26,337 nt of DNA from a virus, in the IMG/VR virus record IMGVR_UViG_3300042445_000437, positions 1-26,337 of that record. The stretch is one strand, 5' to 3'. The position numbers were made by a program, and so were the translations under genes. Below, in pieces: positions 4,578-17,411 of the stretch (its first letter is position 1; every line of letters starts with the position of its first letter). The notes under the pieces were generated by a model, which saw only the letters and a list, made by a program, of their open reading frames with translations, was not told the DNA's origin and ran no database searches.

Positions 4578-5034
4578 TACTGAAAAAGAACTAATAGAAG
4601 GCATCATCAAGCACGGTCCGGAAATATTGGAACATTGTGCGTGTTCTGATGATATCTCTAAATACCTATCTCGTCTACAGGACGAACATCTGCACTACCC
4701 CAAACCCACTGAAATAGACACATCGAAATGGTTTATGCCTAACGATTATTGTCCAAATTTAGTAGAGTATCTCTATGGGTGCTGTCAGACACAGGAACAG
4801 AAAGATAGAGTTAGTTTAGAATTAGATTTATATATAAAAAATAATATGATGGACATGTTGTTTTTTATAAAATACCTAGTAGATACCTTGCGTAAAAACA
4901 AGATAATATGGGGTGTGGGTAGAGGATCAAGTGTAGCAAGTTATGTGCTCTATTTAATAGGGGTGCATAAGGTGGATAGTATTAAATACAATCTACCAAT
5001 AGAAGAATTCTTCAAAGGAGATCAAAATGGGTAA
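4567..5034 (+). CDS. DNA polymerase III alpha-subunit (DnaE)-like fragment without catalytic aspartates
   Basis: A 155-residue protein overlapping its upstream neighbour by 11 bases. Residues about 80-150 align by eye with the bacterial PolIII alpha palm region: the stretch before the motif (FFIKYLVDTLRKNKIIWG) corresponds to the YFLIV-D-I-WAK-x-I segment. The block GVGRGSSVASYVLYLIGVHK (116-135) corresponds to the GPGRGSAAGSLVAY block and is followed by the counterpart of DPL-y-LLFERFL. In DnaE the catalytic PDFDVD aspartates come shortly after this point; here the protein stops instead. The N-terminal 60 residues are not recognisable, and no PHP, finger or tau-binding region is present. It is therefore unlikely to polymerise DNA by itself. 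It could be a stand-alone binding or decoy module, or the phage family that databases label DNA polymerase III alpha. Confidence 0.7.
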   Translation: MWTNTEKELIEGIIKHGPEILEHCACSDDISKYLSRLQDEHLHYPKPTEIDTSKWFMPNDYCPNLVEYLYGCCQTQEQKDRVSLELDLYIKNNMMDMLFFIKYLVDTLRKNKIIWGVGRGSSVASYVLYLIGVHKVDSIKYNLPIEEFFKGDQNG

Positions 5035-10780: not shown

Positions 10781-11504
10781 AGAAGGACTACGTCCGCTGG
10801 ATCTTAAAGAAATGATCCATCCCGTATTCGAAGTTGACACATTTAAATCAAAAATGGGCGAAGACCAGGATGTCTGTGTGGTCAGCTTTAAAGTCAAGGA
10901 TCGAGCACCTGCAAAGGACCTCATGGAGTTTATCGAAAAGGGATTTTACTTCGTACTAGATTCAGATGTAAGCTCTGGAGAAGATGCCAAAGGCGAATAC
11001 AGCGTGTTTGTGGAACTTCCGCGAACTCCCCAACTTGCTGAACAGATCAAAGAGATCACCTACGGTGTTAGAAAGCTAACAGGTATCGAAGATTTTAAAT
11101 TTAAGTATCACAAAAGCAATAAGATGCACGAAGTATCAGAAGAAACATTAAAGTCTGTGGTGCCAGCAACTTCTAAGGACTACAGCGGGTTTATGGAAAA
11201 AATGAGAACTGAAGGTGTTAAAACTTTCTTCAATAAAACATTGATGGATGATTTGACATTAGATGGAGATATCATTACCATACATAAACCATTCAATAAA
11301 ACTGTACAGCTACGCATGATCAAAGAAGGTGAAACTGAAGCGATCCTAGAAGGATCAACAGATATAATATCCATGGATGAAGAATCTATGAGTGAAATTT
11401 TTTGGCTTACTAAAGTACTAGGTGATTACAATATCAATAAGGTAGGCGAAAACTTTATGTTTGACAACAACGGTCAAGCTATTTTATTACAAAGGATCGG
11501 ATAA
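10749..11504 (+). CDS. Conserved phage protein of unknown function
   Basis: The frame is open from an ATG at 10704, but the ATG at 10749 is preferred because AGGAGA (10737-10742) is spaced 6 bases before it. The 15 extra residues of the longer form would lie in the C-terminal coding region of the previous gene. The result is 251 residues: a short Gln/Pro-rich start (MQNQPQHQQ), then a mixed alpha/beta protein with EVDTFKSKMGEDQDVCVVSF, a helical KDLMEFIEKGFYFVLDSD and a C-terminal VGENFMFDNNGQAILLQRIG. No catalytic motif is seen. It is paired with the preceding gene and overlaps the endolysin start by one base. Confidence 0.65.
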   Translation: MQNQPQHQQLKEGLRPLDLKEMIHPVFEVDTFKSKMGEDQDVCVVSFKVKDRAPAKDLMEFIEKGFYFVLDSDVSSGEDAKGEYSVFVELPRTPQLAEQIKEITYGVRKLTGIEDFKFKYHKSNKMHEVSEETLKSVVPATSKDYSGFMEKMRTEGVKTFFNKTLMDDLTLDGDIITIHKPFNKTVQLRMIKEGETEAILEGSTDIISMDEESMSEIFWLTKVLGDYNINKVGENFMFDNNGQAILLQRIG

Positions 11505-12133
11505 TGAGTTTTACATTTGAATTTACTAAGAGTCAGTTGAAAGAAATGATTCCTAAAAATCCCTACGTAAGTCAGTGGTATGATGCTTTATCAGAAATAT
11601 TACCAGAATACAGTATTAATACTCCCCAGCGTGTGGCAGCTTTCCTAGCACAATGCGCTCACGAAAGCGGTGGGTTTGTATTCCTGAAAGAAAATCTAAA
11701 TTACAAAGCACCTAGTCTGCGTAAGGTATTTCCTAAATACTTCCCAGACGATGCTACGGCAGCAGCCTACGCTAACAAGCCAGAAAAAATTGCCAACCGA
11801 GTCTATGCTAATCGTATGGGCAACGGTCCGGAAGAATCCGGTGATGGTTGGACCTTTTGCGGACGCGGCCTGATTCAGTTAACTGGCAAAGACAATTACA
11901 CATTCTTTGCAGCATCTATAGATGTTCCTATTGAAGAAGCCGCAGAGTATCTGCAGACTTTTGAAGGTGCTGTTCAGTCAGCTTGTTTCTTCTGGGAACA
12001 AAACAATCTCAATACTTGGGCAGACAAAGGAGACATCCTTACACTGACCAAACGCATCAATGGCGGCACTATTGGTCTTGAGGATAGAATCAAACACTAC
12101 GAACACGCACTGCATATCTTCGGAGCACATTAA
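11504..12133 (+). CDS. GH19-type endolysin (chitinase-class lysozyme)
   Basis: A 209-residue protein whose start shares a base with the upstream stop (TAATG). It carries the glycoside hydrolase 19 hallmarks: FLAQCAHESGGF (47-58) with the catalytic acid E54, a second acidic residue E63 in FLKENLNY, and the substrate-groove segment FCGRGLIQLTGKDNY. No signal peptide is present, so export needs the holin. In phages GH19 enzymes cleave peptidoglycan glycan strands. The following three genes complete a lysis cassette. Length is normal for single-domain GH19 endolysins. Confidence 0.9.
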   Translation: MSFTFEFTKSQLKEMIPKNPYVSQWYDALSEILPEYSINTPQRVAAFLAQCAHESGGFVFLKENLNYKAPSLRKVFPKYFPDDATAAAYANKPEKIANRVYANRMGNGPEESGDGWTFCGRGLIQLTGKDNYTFFAASIDVPIEEAAEYLQTFEGAVQSACFFWEQNNLNTWADKGDILTLTKRINGGTIGLEDRIKHYEHALHIFGAH

Positions 12134-12135
12134 TT

Positions 12136-12603
12136 GTGTGGCAATTTCAGTGGATGCTTAGTTTAATTCCAGACAGTTTTTTTGTCTGGATTACCTATAT
12201 TCTAATGATTATAGGTGTTGGACTGTATGTTGCCAGCAAACTAGTTAAATGGATTCCATTGATGGGGCAGTACAAACTGCCAGCTGAGCTTATTGGTATA
12301 CTAGTATTATTAGCAGGAGTATATCTATCCGGTGGTTATGGTGTAGAGATGGCGTGGCGAGACAAAGTTCGAGAACTAGAAGAAAAGATTAAAGTTGCAG
12401 AATCAAAGAGTCAAGAAGTAAAAATACAGATACAAGAAAAAATAGTCTATAAGACTAAAGTTGTAAAAGAAAAAGAAACCGTATATATAGATAGGATCAA
12501 AGAAATAGCTAAAGAAGTAGATGCTAAATGCGAAGTAGATCCTAGAGTTATCGAAGAACTCAACAAGGCTTCTGAAGATCCGTTTAAAGGAGCAGCCAAA
12601 TGA
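12136..12603 (+). CDS. Inner-membrane spanin-like protein with two membrane helices
   Basis: A 155-residue protein starting at GTG 12136, two bases after the endolysin stop. Two transmembrane helices (about 15-33 and 49-66) are followed by a long charged coiled coil (about 72-130). The C-terminus has C132-EVDPRVIEELNKA, which resembles the C-x-V-P-x-x-V-x-x-L-N-x-A end of lambda Rz-type i-spanins. It is followed directly by a small lipoprotein, as expected for the outer spanin. The classical Rz has one membrane segment; the extra N-terminal one is unusual and could place the N-terminus in the periplasm or add a holin-like function. The i-spanin call is inference from architecture and order. 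Confidence 0.7.
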   Translation: MWQFQWMLSLIPDSFFVWITYILMIIGVGLYVASKLVKWIPLMGQYKLPAELIGILVLLAGVYLSGGYGVEMAWRDKVRELEEKIKVAESKSQEVKIQIQEKIVYKTKVVKEKETVYIDRIKEIAKEVDAKCEVDPRVIEELNKASEDPFKGAAK

Positions 12604-12863
12604 AGACGCTGTTGATAATCGCAGTGCTAATTTTATCCGGGTGCTCTACTGCTCCTGTAGTAATGAAATTTCCAGAAGTGCCCGAAGCGTTAATGCAGCA
12701 ATGCGAACCGTTAGACAAAGTTCCAGCTGACACTAAACAGCTTAGTACCACAGCAGAAGTAGTAATTAAAAATTACGGCAAATATCACGTATGCAGAATC
12801 AAGGTAGAAGAATGGCAAGAATGGTACAAGTCAAATAAGAAAATCTACGAAACAGTTAAATAA
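12600..12863 (+). CDS. Outer-membrane spanin-like lipoprotein (Rz1 type)
   Basis: An 87-residue protein overlapping the i-spanin candidate by 4 bases. The N-terminus MKTLLIIAVLILSGC is a textbook type II signal with lipobox LSGC and lipidated Cys at residue 15. The mature part has a proline-containing stretch (TAPVVMKFPEVPEA) and a C-terminal CRIKVEEWQEWYKSNK helix. Position, size and lipobox match an o-spanin that would span the periplasm with the preceding coiled-coil protein and fuse the membranes in the last lysis step. Confidence 0.75.
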   Translation: MKTLLIIAVLILSGCSTAPVVMKFPEVPEALMQQCEPLDKVPADTKQLSTTAEVVIKNYGKYHVCRIKVEEWQEWYKSNKKIYETVK

Positions 12864-12886
12864 GAGTATGTTTTTAGGAGCGACCT

Positions 12887-13387
12887 ATGGCAACAAATGA
12901 AGAATATGAAAAAATGAGCGCGGCAGAAAAGAAAAAAGAAGATTGGATGAACAGTAAATGGCGTCCAATGATGGGTTGGATGTATATGCTAGTCTGTACC
13001 ATGGACATGGTGATATTTCCAATCTTATGGAGTCTATTACAAACAACTACCGGTACAGCTATCACACAATGGAATCCACTAACCTTACAAGGTGCTGGAC
13101 TATTCCACATCGCAATGGGTGCAGTATTAGGTATTGCGGCATTCGGTCGTACACAGGAAAAACTAGGAGGAGCAAACAATGGCGGAGCACAAGTACCATC
13201 AAGCAACTTTACAGCACCTAGCGCACCTGCGTCAAGTTTCTCAGCACCAAGCTTCTCAGCACCAAGTACCCCAAGTAGCTTTAGCGGAGGCAGCTTTGGA
13301 AGCGCACCTAAGACAACGTCAGCAGCACCGGCAATGAGCAGCACAGGTAAGCCAATGCCAATGCAGCCCGATCAACCTGAACTATAA
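12887..13387 (+). CDS. Holin of the 3TM family with Ser/Ala/Pro-rich tail
   Basis: A 166-residue protein with AGGAG upstream. After a charged N-terminus it has WRPMMGWMYMLVCTMD, a first hydrophobic segment (about 28-51), then NPLTLQGAGLFHIAMGAVLG and a second one (66-86), ending GRTQEK. This is the pattern of the 3TM holin family found in phages and gene-transfer agents. Residues about 95-150 are a low-complexity tail with repeated SFSAP units (tandem 15-base DNA repeat at 13238-13266), then GGSFGSAP. Holins form inner-membrane lesions that release the endolysin. The long tail is unusual and may set timing or protein contacts. Confidence 0.75.
   Translation: MATNEEYEKMSAAEKKKEDWMNSKWRPMMGWMYMLVCTMDMVIFPILWSLLQTTTGTAITQWNPLTLQGAGLFHIAMGAVLGIAAFGRTQEKLGGANNGGAQVPSSNFTAPSAPASSFSAPSFSAPSTPSSFSGGSFGSAPKTTSAAPAMSSTGKPMPMQPDQPEL
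13238..13266 (+). repeat. Tandem 15-base repeat in holin tail
   Basis: TTCTCAGCACCAAG occurs at 13238-13251 and again at 13253-13266, in frame, encoding successive SFSAP units. It explains the low-complexity holin tail and could vary in copy number by slippage. Confidence 0.8.
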
Positions 13388-13399
13388 AGGAAAAATAAA

Positions 13400-13684
13400 A
13401 TGAAATTATTAGCAACAGCAATTTTTGCAGGTATGTTGGCGTTCGGTACAGCCGCATGTGCCAAAGAAGAACCAAAAAAAGCAACTACTCAAGCTGCACC
13501 AGCCTCAGCAGCAGATGCTAAAAAAGATGAAGCGCCAAAGACTAAAAAAGTCTGCGTTGATGTACAAGGCAAAGATGGCAAGCCTGTAATGGATCCTAAA
13601 ACTAAAAAACCTAAACAGAACTGTAAAGAAGTAAAAGTGCATAAGAAGCACGAAGGCACCGCAGTTCCAGATAAGAAAAAATAA
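13400..13684 (+). CDS. Small exported lysine-rich protein or lipoprotein
   Basis: A 94-residue protein with AAGGA upstream. MKLLATAIFAGMLAFGTAACA is a signal peptide. C20 preceded by TAA could be lipidated (a weak lipobox), or signal peptidase I could cleave after ACA. The mature part is very rich in Lys, Ala and Thr, with KVCVDVQGKDGKPVMDPK and two cysteines (C52, C71) that could form a disulfide. It is the last gene before the terminator at 13711 and follows the holin, so it is probably transcribed with the lysis genes. I do not recognise a family; cell-envelope interaction during lysis is only a guess. Confidence 0.6.
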   Translation: MKLLATAIFAGMLAFGTAACAKEEPKKATTQAAPASAADAKKDEAPKTKKVCVDVQGKDGKPVMDPKTKKPKQNCKEVKVHKKHEGTAVPDKKK

Positions 13685-13710
13685 AGCTCAGTAAATCTGT
13701 AGTAAATATA

Positions 13711-13738
13711 AAGGACTGCTTGACACAGTCCTTTTTTT
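13711..13738 (+). terminator. Intrinsic terminator after the lysis cassette, overlapping the dnaJ promoter
   Basis: The perfect 8-bp stem AAGGACTG (13711-13718) / CAGTCCTT (13726-13733), with the 7-base loop CTTGACA, is followed by seven T. It lies 27 bases after the stop of the exported protein. The loop contains the complete -35 hexamer of the downstream promoter. Confidence 0.9.
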
Positions 13739-13748
13739 ATCATATAAT
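13720..13748 (+). promoter_or_regulatory. Consensus sigma70 promoter of the dnaJ operon
   Basis: TTGACA (13720-13725), a 17-base spacer and TATAAT (13743-13748) make a perfect match to the sigma70 consensus at the optimal spacing. The terminator T-run forms part of the spacer. Only six bases separate the -10 box from the dnaJ ATG at 13755, so the expected start site (about seven bases downstream of the -10) falls on or within two bases of that A. The transcript should be leaderless or nearly so. This is probably an early promoter used by host RNA polymerase. Confidence 0.88.
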
Positions 13749-13754
13749 ATAACT

Positions 13755-14588
13755 ATGGATTATTACTCTACACTAGGTTTAAAACGAGGTGCATCAGACG
13801 CCGATATTAAAAAAGCATATCGCAGCATGGCTATGAAGCACCATCCCGACCGCGGCGGTGATGAAAAGAAATTCAAAGAAGTATCACAGGCCTATGAATA
13901 TCTAAGCGATCCTCAGAAAAAACAAATCATAGACCTTGGCGGGGATCCCAATTCGCAACAGAGACAGGGTGGTGGTTTTAATCAAGGCCCGTTTGAATTC
14001 CATTTCAATACAGGAAACTTTGGAGACATATTTGAAAATTTTGGGTTTGGGCAGCGGCCTATGCGCAAGAATAAAAGTCTCAATATCAAAGTGCAAATTA
14101 CATTAGAAGATGTATTGAAAGGCAAAGATATAAATGCAGAAATAGGCATACCTGGCTCCCGTAATAAAATCATCAATATAAAAATCCCAGCAGGAATAGA
14201 ACACGGACAACAGATAAGATACGAAGGCATGGGAGATATGTCTATTCCGGATCTTAGAGCAGGCGATCTAATAGTTAATGTATTTGTTGAAAAACATCCA
14301 ACCTTTTTCAGAGAAGGTAGCTCATTGATCTGCGAGCATGAACTTTCAATATGGGATGCTGTATTAGGAAAAGATCTAGAAATTAAAACACTGGACAGCA
14401 AAACATTAACTATATCAGTGCCAGCAGGCACCCAACCAGAAACGATTCTTAGTTGCCGTAATGAAGGTCTTCCCGATATGCGGACTAAGAGTCGAGGTAA
14501 TTTATTAATTAAATTTAAAATAGCTGTTCCTAAAAATCTAAGCGCGGAACAGATACAAAAAATAAGAGAAATAAAAAATGGATTTTAA
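13755..14588 (+). CDS. dnaJ: DnaJ/CbpA-type J-domain co-chaperone without zinc finger
   Basis: A 277-residue Hsp40. The J domain (1-60) has the canonical start DYYSTLGL and HPD at 30-32, needed to stimulate the DnaK ATPase. A short Gly/Phe-rich linker (about 66-100, FNQGPFEFHFNTGNFGDIF) leads to two C-terminal beta-sandwich substrate-binding domains (IKIPAGIEHGQQIRYEGMG; then VPAGTQPETILSCRNEGLP). There are no CxxCxGxG repeats, so it is the CbpA-like type. There is no Shine-Dalgarno, and the -10 box is six bases upstream, indicating leaderless translation. It overlaps the peptide deformylase start by 11 bases. It would redirect host DnaK to phage needs. Confidence 0.9.
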   Translation: MDYYSTLGLKRGASDADIKKAYRSMAMKHHPDRGGDEKKFKEVSQAYEYLSDPQKKQIIDLGGDPNSQQRQGGGFNQGPFEFHFNTGNFGDIFENFGFGQRPMRKNKSLNIKVQITLEDVLKGKDINAEIGIPGSRNKIINIKIPAGIEHGQQIRYEGMGDMSIPDLRAGDLIVNVFVEKHPTFFREGSSLICEHELSIWDAVLGKDLEIKTLDSKTLTISVPAGTQPETILSCRNEGLPDMRTKSRGNLLIKFKIAVPKNLSAEQIQKIREIKNGF

Positions 14589-15075
14589 ATTAGGAGCTCA
14601 CGGAAGTCTTATACAGCCCAGCAGTGCATGGGACTTTGCCACTGACGGTGATGCCAAACAATTAGAAAATGATATGATAGAATTTATGGTAGCAGCCGGC
14701 GGTATTGGATTAGCTGCTAATCAGATAGGATTAACCAAGCGTGTGTTTGTTATGGGCAGAAATGATATCAAAGATTTTCCTAAACCGTTCGCTGTGTTCA
14801 ATCCTGTAATCAAAGAAGCCAGTAGCGAATTGATCATTGATCAAGAAGGGTGTCTTAGCTATCCTGGATTATTTTTAACAGTTAAAAGGCCTAAATGGAT
14901 CGTTGCTGAGTATCAGGATAGCGATGGTAATCTCAATGAGATTAAGATCGACGGGTATCTCAGTAAATGTTTTCAACACGAATATGATCACCTAGATGGT
15001 ATTTGTTTTGTTGACAGGGTGTCTAGTATGAAGCTACAATTAGCAATGAAGAAACTAAGGAAAAAAAATAAATGA
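14578..15075 (+). CDS. def: Peptide deformylase
   Basis: A 165-residue metallo-hydrolase with all three family motifs: GIGLAANQ (42-49), EGCLS (90-94, metal ligand C92) and HEYDH (134-138; metal ligands H134 and H138, catalytic E135). It removes the formyl group from nascent protein N-termini. The 12-residue N-terminal sequence is close to host-type length, and the C-terminus is short and basic. Peptide deformylases are known in several marine T4-like phages, where they may maintain deformylation of abundant phage-directed products. The gene overlaps dnaJ by 11 bases and clpA by 4, so the three are translated as a unit. Confidence 0.93.
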   Translation: MDFKLGAHGSLIQPSSAWDFATDGDAKQLENDMIEFMVAAGGIGLAANQIGLTKRVFVMGRNDIKDFPKPFAVFNPVIKEASSELIIDQEGCLSYPGLFLTVKRPKWIVAEYQDSDGNLNEIKIDGYLSKCFQHEYDHLDGICFVDRVSSMKLQLAMKKLRKKNK

Positions 15076-17411
15076 TAGAACCTAGTCAGAATCTACAATT
15101 GATTTTTGAGAAATCTGTAGAAATAGCATCTAAATTAAACCATGAATACATAACTATAGAACACATAGTATTTGGTATCATGTGTGATGCAGAGTCATAT
15201 ACTCAAATAGAAGGGTTCGGAGCCGATGCTAATTTTATCAAAACCAACTTAGATCATTATCTAAAAAATAATCTTAATGATATTAAAAGTGCTGATCCTA
15301 AGACCAAACCTAAAAAAACAAACAGTGTAGAGCGTGTATTGAATAGATGCTTTACACAGGTGTTGTTCAGCGGCCGGCAACGTATGGAAGTCGCTGATGT
15401 CATTATAAGTGTGCTGGCTGAAAAGAACAGCTTCGGTTTCTACTTCCTAACCAAAGGTGGAGTCACTAAAGAAAAATTCATCAAGTATTTTCAAGAAAAC
15501 ATTACCATCGAAGATGATGTAGAGGAAGAACGTAGACCAGTGACAGTTTCTCAAATGGACAAAATATTAAATCAGTTCTGTACAAATCTTAGCTTAAAGG
15601 CCAAGCAACGACAGATAGATCCTGTAATTGGTAGAGAGGACGAATTAGAAAAGATACAGTTGGTATTAGCACGTAGAAATAAGTGCAACGTACTAATGGT
15701 CGGAGAGCCGGGCGTGGGTAAGACTGCTATTGCAGAAGGTCTAGCACGTAAGATTTTTGAAAAGAAAGTTCCTAAGTTTATACAGGATCATCAGGTGTAC
15801 ACTTTAGATATCAGTGCCTTGCTTGCTGGTTCAAAGTATCGTGGAGATTTTGAAGAACGCATCAAAGCAGTATTAACTGCATTAGAAAAGAAAGGCAAGA
15901 TTATCCTGTTCATCGACGAAGCACACATGATGCAAGGTGCAGGTGCTGCTAATCAAAGCAGCAATGATATGGCCAATATGTTAAAGCCAGTGTTGACTAA
16001 GGGTGTTATTAAGTTAATCGCATCGACAACTTGGGAAGAGTATCGTAAACACTTTGAAAAGGATCGTGCGTTGATGCGTAGATTCCAACGAATCACAATC
16101 GACGAACCTACTCCGGAGATGTCTGTTAAGATTCTCAAAGGCGTTCGTAAGTATTACGAAAAACATCATAATGTTAAAATTTCCGACGCAGCCATCGAAC
16201 AAGCAGTTAAACTGTCGGTGAAGTACATGAGTGATAAAAAACTTCCGGACAAGGCTATTGATATTATTGATTGTGCTGCTGCGAGATATAAAATCAAGGA
16301 CGATCCAACGACCGAAGGTATAGAACAGATCGTCGACATCGAGCAGATAACCTATGAGTTAAGCAAGATGATTAATATGCCATTAGAAACTGTTGCTCAG
16401 AAAGAAAGTAAAAATCTTTCAGATCTCGAAGGGGGTATGAAAGCAGCAGTGTACGGTCAGGACGGTGCTGTTGATGTATTGCTTGACAAAATATTTGTGT
16501 CTCAGGCAGGCATGAAATCTCCCAACAAACCAATTGGCAGTTTCTTATTCTTAGGACCTACTGGTTGTGGAAAAACTGAAACTGCTAGACAACTATCAGA
16601 TAAGATGGGTATGCCATTAGTTAGATTTGATATGAGCGAATATCAGGAAAAGCACAGTGTTGCTCGATTAATCGGTGCTCCTCCGGGCTATGTTGGCTAC
16701 GAAGATAACGCAGGTCAGCTGATTACCAAGCTACAAGAAACTCCTAATTGTGTATTGTTGTTAGATGAGATTGAAAAAGCTCATCAAGACGTATCTAATA
16801 TCTTATTGCAATTTATGGATAACGGATTTGTTACTGGTTCAAATGGAAAACAGGCCGATGGCAGGAACTGTATTCTTGTTATGACCAGCAATCTGGGAGC
16901 CAGAGACAACGAAAACAACACAATTGGTTTTGGTGATCTAGACAAAGACGGAGAAGATGACAAAGCCATTAAAAAGTTCTTTGCTCCTGAGTTCCGCAAT
17001 CGACTAGACGCAGTAATTAAGTTCAGCAAACTAAGCCAAGAAACAGTTATACAAATTGTTAAGAAATTTATCAGTGAGTTAAACACGCAACTCAAGGACA
17101 AAGGCATTGACATTGTCTTAGACAAACAAGCAGTAGTGTGGTTAGCAGAAAGAGGATACGACAAGAAAATGGGTGCTAGGCCGTTGGCTAGGATCATCGA
17201 CAATAAAATCAAGTCTCCCCTCAGTCGTCGAGTATTGTTTGGCGATCTAGTCGACGGCGGACGTGTAACTATAACTATCGAAAACGATGAACTAGCATTT
17301 AGCGTGGAAGATATTCCAAAGCCATTAACTAAAGATGAGAAAAAAGCTCTCAAAGCTCAAAAAATGTTAGAACTATCTAAAAATGAAATCACAGAAAACC
17401 AAGAAGACTAG
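15072..17411 (+). CDS. clpA: ClpA-type AAA+ unfoldase
   Basis: A 779-residue protein of full ClpA length. The N-terminal Clp-N-like helical domain (about 1-145) is divergent. The first AAA+ ring has Walker A GEPGVGKT (211-218, K217) and Walker B LFIDEAH (279-285). The second has Walker A GPTGCGKT (495-502, K501), Walker B VLLLDEIEKAH and sensor R in APEFRNRLDAVIKF. There is no ClpB-type middle coiled coil. An I-G-F tripeptide at 618-620 sits where ClpA carries its IGL ClpP-docking loop, so docking to host ClpP is likely. No clpP or clpS is nearby. It would unfold selected proteins for degradation or disassemble complexes. Confidence 0.92.
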   Translation: MIEPSQNLQLIFEKSVEIASKLNHEYITIEHIVFGIMCDAESYTQIEGFGADANFIKTNLDHYLKNNLNDIKSADPKTKPKKTNSVERVLNRCFTQVLFSGRQRMEVADVIISVLAEKNSFGFYFLTKGGVTKEKFIKYFQENITIEDDVEEERRPVTVSQMDKILNQFCTNLSLKAKQRQIDPVIGREDELEKIQLVLARRNKCNVLMVGEPGVGKTAIAEGLARKIFEKKVPKFIQDHQVYTLDISALLAGSKYRGDFEERIKAVLTALEKKGKIILFIDEAHMMQGAGAANQSSNDMANMLKPVLTKGVIKLIASTTWEEYRKHFEKDRALMRRFQRITIDEPTPEMSVKILKGVRKYYEKHHNVKISDAAIEQAVKLSVKYMSDKKLPDKAIDIIDCAAARYKIKDDPTTEGIEQIVDIEQITYELSKMINMPLETVAQKESKNLSDLEGGMKAAVYGQDGAVDVLLDKIFVSQAGMKSPNKPIGSFLFLGPTGCGKTETARQLSDKMGMPLVRFDMSEYQEKHSVARLIGAPPGYVGYEDNAGQLITKLQETPNCVLLLDEIEKAHQDVSNILLQFMDNGFVTGSNGKQADGRNCILVMTSNLGARDNENNTIGFGDLDKDGEDDKAIKKFFAPEFRNRLDAVIKFSKLSQETVIQIVKKFISELNTQLKDKGIDIVLDKQAVVWLAERGYDKKMGARPLARIIDNKIKSPLSRRVLFGDLVDGGRVTITIENDELAFSVEDIPKPLTKDEKKALKAQKMLELSKNEITENQED

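Follow-up and report, generated by a model that had tools for sequence, protein, structure and literature searches.

The window, by which we mean the whole stretch of DNA analysed here, comprises the 26,337 bases of the virus record IMGVR_UViG_3300042445_000437, in which a lysis cassette is followed on the same strand by a dnaJ gene and two further genes that overlap end to end. Between the two gene groups lies a compact element, the parts of which are set out below together with the genes on either side.

11504..13387, + strand: upstream lysis cassette, with endolysin, Rz-like and Rz1-like (spanin-like) genes and a holin
13400..13684, + strand: last upstream open reading frame, 94 aa, with a lipoprotein-like start and without a family match; transcripts from it are predicted to stop at the hairpin
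13710..13734, + strand: putative terminator hairpin, AAAGGACTG / CAGTCCTTT, 9 bp, loop CTTGACA; compensated stem changes in relatives
13710-13718, + strand: 5' stem arm, AAAGGACTG
13719-13725, + strand: loop CTTGACA, 7 nt
13720..13725, + strand: -35 hexamer TTGACA, all six bases within the hairpin loop
13726-13734, + strand: 3' stem arm, CAGTCCTTT
13726..13742, + strand: promoter spacer, 17 nt, made up of the 3' stem arm and the T-run
13732..13738, + strand: T-run TTTTTTT of the putative terminator, with predicted RNA 3' ends; T-rich columns s7-s13 in relatives
13743..13748, + strand: -10 hexamer TATAAT, kept in relatives
13749..13754, + strand: discriminator ATAACT, 6 nt; predicted +1 at 13755
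13755..14588, + strand: dnaJ, 277 aa, J domain and DnaJ C-terminal domain (Pfam DnaJ, DnaJ_C), no Shine-Dalgarno (SD) sequence, predicted leaderless
14578..15075, + strand: peptide deformylase gene (Pfam PF01327), overlapping the end of dnaJ
15072..17411, + strand: Clp-type AAA+ ATPase gene (phrog_4871), overlapping the deformylase stop codon

An earlier sequence-only reading had the transcript that ends ahead of dnaJ as a lysis transcript; the endolysin, the two spanin-like genes and the holin make this a reasonable name, while the last reading frame of the series (13400-13684) has no assigned function. As for the source of the DNA, a blastn search against named phages returned no nucleotide relatives, and by the clamp loader the closest named phages are the PA5oct-like Pseudomonas jumbo phages (53%). 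The GroES-like/chaperonin, clamp loader and opposite-strand PhoH genes are close together both in the window and in PA5oct, the names in the window being assigned partly by eye. A scan of contigs for DnaJ listed matches of about 29-46% identity, mostly on bacterial contigs, and gave no clue to the host. The element itself occurs in a widespread group of large aquatic bacterial viruses.

Most of the anatomy can be read directly from the letters, as it was at the outset: TTGACA in the terminator loop, TATAAT 17 nt on and the ATG 6 nt beyond that, with the T-run (13732-13738) contained in the promoter spacer (13726-13742). The hairpin had been described as a perfect 8-bp stem at 13711-13733; it is there, with a stem of 9 bp that extends over 13710-13734. 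Its RNA fold has a z of -4.1, with none of 200 shuffles being equally stable, and it displays the sequence features of an intrinsic terminator, namely a G+C-containing 9-bp stem, a 7-nt loop and seven T. A sigma70 promoter calls for TTGACA and TATAAT 16-18 nt apart; here both hexamers are complete across a 17-nt spacer, and this is the sole 12/12 match in the 12 kb scanned (the score is against the sigma70 consensus, the use of which by the host is assumed). The pattern TTGACA-N15-19-TATAAT is expected 0.04 times per window, and the presence of the element is not due to chance. Counting on through the 6-nt discriminator, transcription is predicted to begin (+1) at the A of the dnaJ ATG (13755), which places the start where a leaderless message would have it, at or within a few nucleotides of the AUG. 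Consistent with the first reading of dnaJ as a gene devoid of a Shine-Dalgarno sequence, no SD-like 4-mer precedes it in the window, as against 20 of the 38 window genes scored that have one. A second strong promoter-like match, TTGACA-18-TACAAT at 15011-15040, is found within the deformylase gene, 31 nt before the ATG of the Clp ATPase; we rejected it as a promoter, since it falls on coding letters with a similar match in 29 of 76 relatives and probably reflects coding constraint.

A search with DnaJ recovered 80 viral loci, from which 50 distinct 60-nt upstream sequences were compared; these are related sequences and not independent events, and their kinship inflates the counts that follow. 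A TTGAC-type promoter scoring 10-12 of 12 stands before dnaJ in 42 of the 50, with a spacer of 17 nt in 41 of these 42 and a distance of 5-9 nt from the -10 to the start codon in 40 (exactly 6 nt in 24). A second scan, independent of the DnaJ search, applied a degenerate pattern of the element to all viral contigs: all 62 of its matches immediately precede dnaJ, and in each the ATG follows the -10 at 5-9 nt. An SD-like 4-mer occurs in a mere two of 66 dnaJ upstream sequences, both from lineages with an altered or missing promoter. The sequence-only reading had proposed looking in related phages for TTGACA-type terminator loops ahead of dnaJ, and such loops are indeed the rule: TTGAC occupies the loop at 54 of 59 dnaJ sites versus 3 of 313 sites at other genes, and the fusion of terminator and promoter is thus nearly dnaJ-specific. 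Named jumbo phages with a dnaJ (Atu_ph07 and Phosso) have no such element, and in them dnaJ is internal to an operon, where it closely follows or overlaps the gene before it.

Within the element, the different parts vary in different ways. TTGAC is invariant in all 31 distinct elements with a spacer of 17 (compared from 12 upstream bases to the -10), whereas the surrounding stem varies. In the 24 elements of the same register seven stem pairs are standard throughout, with G-C/A-T and A-T/T-A exchanges between them, and a paired deletion separates GGACTGC..GCAGTCC from GGCTGC..GCAGCC in relatives. Since these changes preserve pairing, they fit RNA pairing rather than a fixed protein site. A T-rich run of about seven follows the stem in most relatives; in some it is short, e.g., TTACTTTTCG in L023, and termination may therefore be partial there.

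The lineages that depart from this pattern are likewise informative. On the DnaJ tree about six changes lie between promoter-bearing and promoter-lacking rows (bootstrap 5-6; the starred branches alone force two), implying that the promoter state changed more than once. Six distinct hairpins are without TTGAC in the loop (the L010/L017 type, L035, L042, L044, L051 and the L062 type), and none of the six has TATAAT in place (one has TATTAT), whereas all promoter-bearing hairpins have both boxes; this joint loss of -35 and -10 was examined by a Fisher test. The hairpin is kept even where the promoter is lost. In L062 and L063 (about 4950-5000) a long hairpin whose loop contains AAGGAGG comes immediately ahead of the dnaJ ATG, and there, as read from the letters, a putative hairpin-loop SD stands in place of the promoter. 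At L035, L044 and L046 (about 4940-5000) a hairpin near the dnaJ ATG is accompanied by neither promoter nor SD, and in L060 the distance extends to 25 nt, to a GTG start preceded by TTTAGGAA. Judging from several distinct relatives that have no recognizable promoter, the element is not indispensable. Conversely, two distant dnaJ loci (L077 and L080, 31-35% identity) have the leaderless promoter but no terminator hairpin, indicating that the leaderless start can exist apart from the terminator fusion.

These patterns bear on two alternative accounts of the hairpin. It might be a weak or non-working terminator attached to a real leaderless sigma70 promoter, and be kept as a stabilizer of mRNA 3' ends or as an RNase-processing site. 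The T-run is broken in L023, L060 and L064, as such an account would have it; however, the stem is strongly folded, the T-rich run survives in most relatives and hairpins persist where the promoter is gone, and we regard this account as distinctly unlikely. Alternatively, the inverted repeat might be no RNA signal at all but a DNA operator that surrounds the -35 and serves a regulator of the phage or of the host. A repeat that brackets the -35 occupies a frequent place for repressor binding, and inverted repeats surround the -35 at other early promoters of these phages too. Yet the stem letters vary with pairing kept, which points to RNA pairing and not to the recognition sequence of one protein, and the repeat is followed by a T-run; hence, an operator seems hardly probable.

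Beyond dnaJ, the same phages have more than 100 other consensus promoters of the pattern TTGACR-N16-18-TATAAT, mostly on one strand, while a reversed control pattern finds almost no matches in the same genomes. Those in the early-gene regions of related phages (L085, L090-L095, L099 and L100) fall into two classes, one with a leader of about 18-28 nt containing AGGAG and the other with the start codon exactly 6 nt after the -10. Counting ATGs that open at least 60 aa behind 119 distinct non-dnaJ promoters, we found a distance from the -10 to the ATG of 6 nt in 13, of 2 nt in one and of 7-19 nt in none; the remaining ATGs peak at 24-34 nt and mostly have AGGAG-type SDs. By a simple binomial, the chance that 13 of 14 share one given distance out of 20 is about 1e-16. 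For three of the 13, an SD-led start in the same frame follows 21-39 nt downstream, and these three, to go by their sequence, may be ordinary genes. Three unrelated families, named from sequence with no family search, were followed into other contigs: the 6-nt distance from the -10 to the ATG is seen for a GIY-YIG-like protein of 112 aa in 47 of 52 distinct promoter-bearing upstream sequences, for a membrane-like protein of 76 aa in 16 of 17, and for a UVDE-like protein of 344 aa in 18 of 31, with 5 nt in six more. In all three the spacers diverge while the distance from the -10 to the ATG stays, which argues that leaderless starts are a property of particular genes retained over divergence. 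Thus, at least three other gene families besides dnaJ seem to be leaderless, and with leaderlessness extending past the chaperone operon, any chaperone-specific reason for it is weakened.

Sequence comparison, on which the whole analysis is built, establishes the anatomy, conservation, covariation, co-loss and spacing classes; RNA 5' and 3' ends, translation and timing are inferred. The 45-bp element would be an intrinsic terminator fused with a sigma70 promoter. In its RNA form it would stop transcripts arriving from the lysis cassette within the T-run (about 13732-13740), and in its DNA form it would serve as a full-consensus promoter for the host sigma70, with the -35 in the loop and the 3' stem and T-run as the spacer. 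Transcription would then start on the A of the dnaJ ATG, and the dnaJ-pdf-clp mRNA would be leaderless at its first gene, with dnaJ as one member of a larger set of leaderless genes that these phages carry at exact spacing. Leaderless translation is assumed to be efficient in the host. In RNA that reads through from upstream, dnaJ would lie behind the hairpin with no SD, and it would accordingly be made mainly from the leaderless RNA. We consider it highly probable that this is a working terminator-promoter that yields a leaderless dnaJ message. The original proposal, that a single element of about 45 bases both terminates and initiates, with dnaJ leaderless, thus gains strong comparative support from conservation and covariation, and the joint loss of the two boxes and the identically spaced leaderless genes in the same phages strengthen it further.

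The converse, that translation of dnaJ relies mostly on mRNA reading through from the lysis operon despite the want of an SD, with the promoter contributing little, would accommodate L035, L044 and L010, where dnaJ is kept behind a hairpin with no promoter seen; nevertheless, the strict preservation of the -35, the -10 and their spacing in most lineages makes this very improbable. That TATAATATA is a T4-type late promoter (gp55-like), with dnaJ a late gene and TTGACA incidental, has next to no likelihood: the phage has jumbo-phage relatives that carry T4-like genes and TATAACTA is one mismatch from TATAAATA, but such promoters have a TATAAATA -10 and no -35, whereas here the -10 is TATAAT and TTGAC never changes, keeping a constant distance of 17 nt, and TATAAATA-like sites occur no more often than in shuffles.

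If the terminator-promoter works as proposed, a polymerase that terminates would come to rest over the promoter. It has been observed that polymerase can remain on the DNA once it has terminated and then restart (PMC6978322), and such retention makes an in-place restart at the dnaJ promoter possible. Further, leaderless RNAs such as that of lambda cI and others are bound by 70S ribosomes, and their use shifts with initiation factors and fMet-tRNA levels (PMC9031893). The original suggestion that a leaderless dnaJ message might go on being translated when ribosomes or initiation factors change is a conjecture. One might also speculate, though we hold it to be unlikely, that dnaJ-pdf-clp and several early genes form a conserved leaderless regulon selected for translation by the 70S route regardless of SD-based competition, and that at dnaJ the fusion of the promoter to the lysis terminator lets the retained polymerase restart at once on the chaperone operon.

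Among known systems, the predicted dnaJ message is like the leaderless cI mRNA of lambda made from pRM, in being that of a phage gene with a start at or next to the AUG and no SD. The cI product is the lysogeny repressor and its promoter is activator-dependent. The present case is unlike it in having a full-consensus promoter inside a terminator and in that several unrelated families share the leaderless start. Reviews present lambda cI as a model leaderless mRNA and lambda as the system where leaderless initiation was first found (PMC9031893, PMC3160421). Leaderless genes of the Deinococcus-Thermus and Actinobacteria have the -10 about 10-12 bp before the start codon at a fixed spacing (PMC12340547, PMC3160421), the same -10-adjacent start as in the phage genes; however, they are cellular, and in Deinococcus often lack a -35, whereas the phage genes have a near-perfect -35 and -10. 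In Clostridium saccharoperbutylacetonicum, P_asr lies in the loop of the sol operon terminator and the promoter bases overlap it (PMC9402939). That promoter is antisense and produces a non-coding RNA, while at dnaJ promoter and terminator point in the same direction, serve successive operons and are conserved across many phages. Leaderless mRNAs and promoter-terminator overlaps are therefore known separately, whereas their fixed combination and the conserved leaderless phage gene set look new; searches of the open-licence literature turned up no description of a leaderless gene set conserved in such phages.

The locus offers a clear natural case of one 45-bp stretch that combines terminator, consensus promoter and start codon, and it points to a conserved leaderless class in a widespread phage group, a class that is exactly spaced and directly testable. 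It could serve as a natural system for asking why leaderless initiation persists in a genome that also has strong SD-led genes, and whether a terminated polymerase can restart in place.

A related arrangement is seen in PA5oct (Arenbergviridae; MK797984 186460-186530, locus L169 6470-6530), where TTGACA lies in the loop and the inner stem of the terminator AAAAGGGCACTTGACAAGTGCCCTTTTTTT at 186478-186507 and a TATAAT comes after it. It differs in its downstream gene, in its spacer of 18 and in its short leader with an SD; for PA5oct no dnaJ match was present among the hits listed, and no clear leaderless class emerged at its 16 consensus sites. At two sites of L091 (10514 and 11493) an AUG at the predicted RNA start is followed 21-27 nt later by an SD-led AUG in the same frame, resembling the 5'-uAUG mRNAs of E. 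coli (PMC4965119). Finally, at early promoters of L090 (15260, - strand) and L093 (8998, 9229 and 9682, all - strand) the -35 is bracketed by an inverted repeat; these repeats (GCGCAC...GTGCGC and GCACAC...GTGTGC) reach to the -10, have no T-run and are possible operators.
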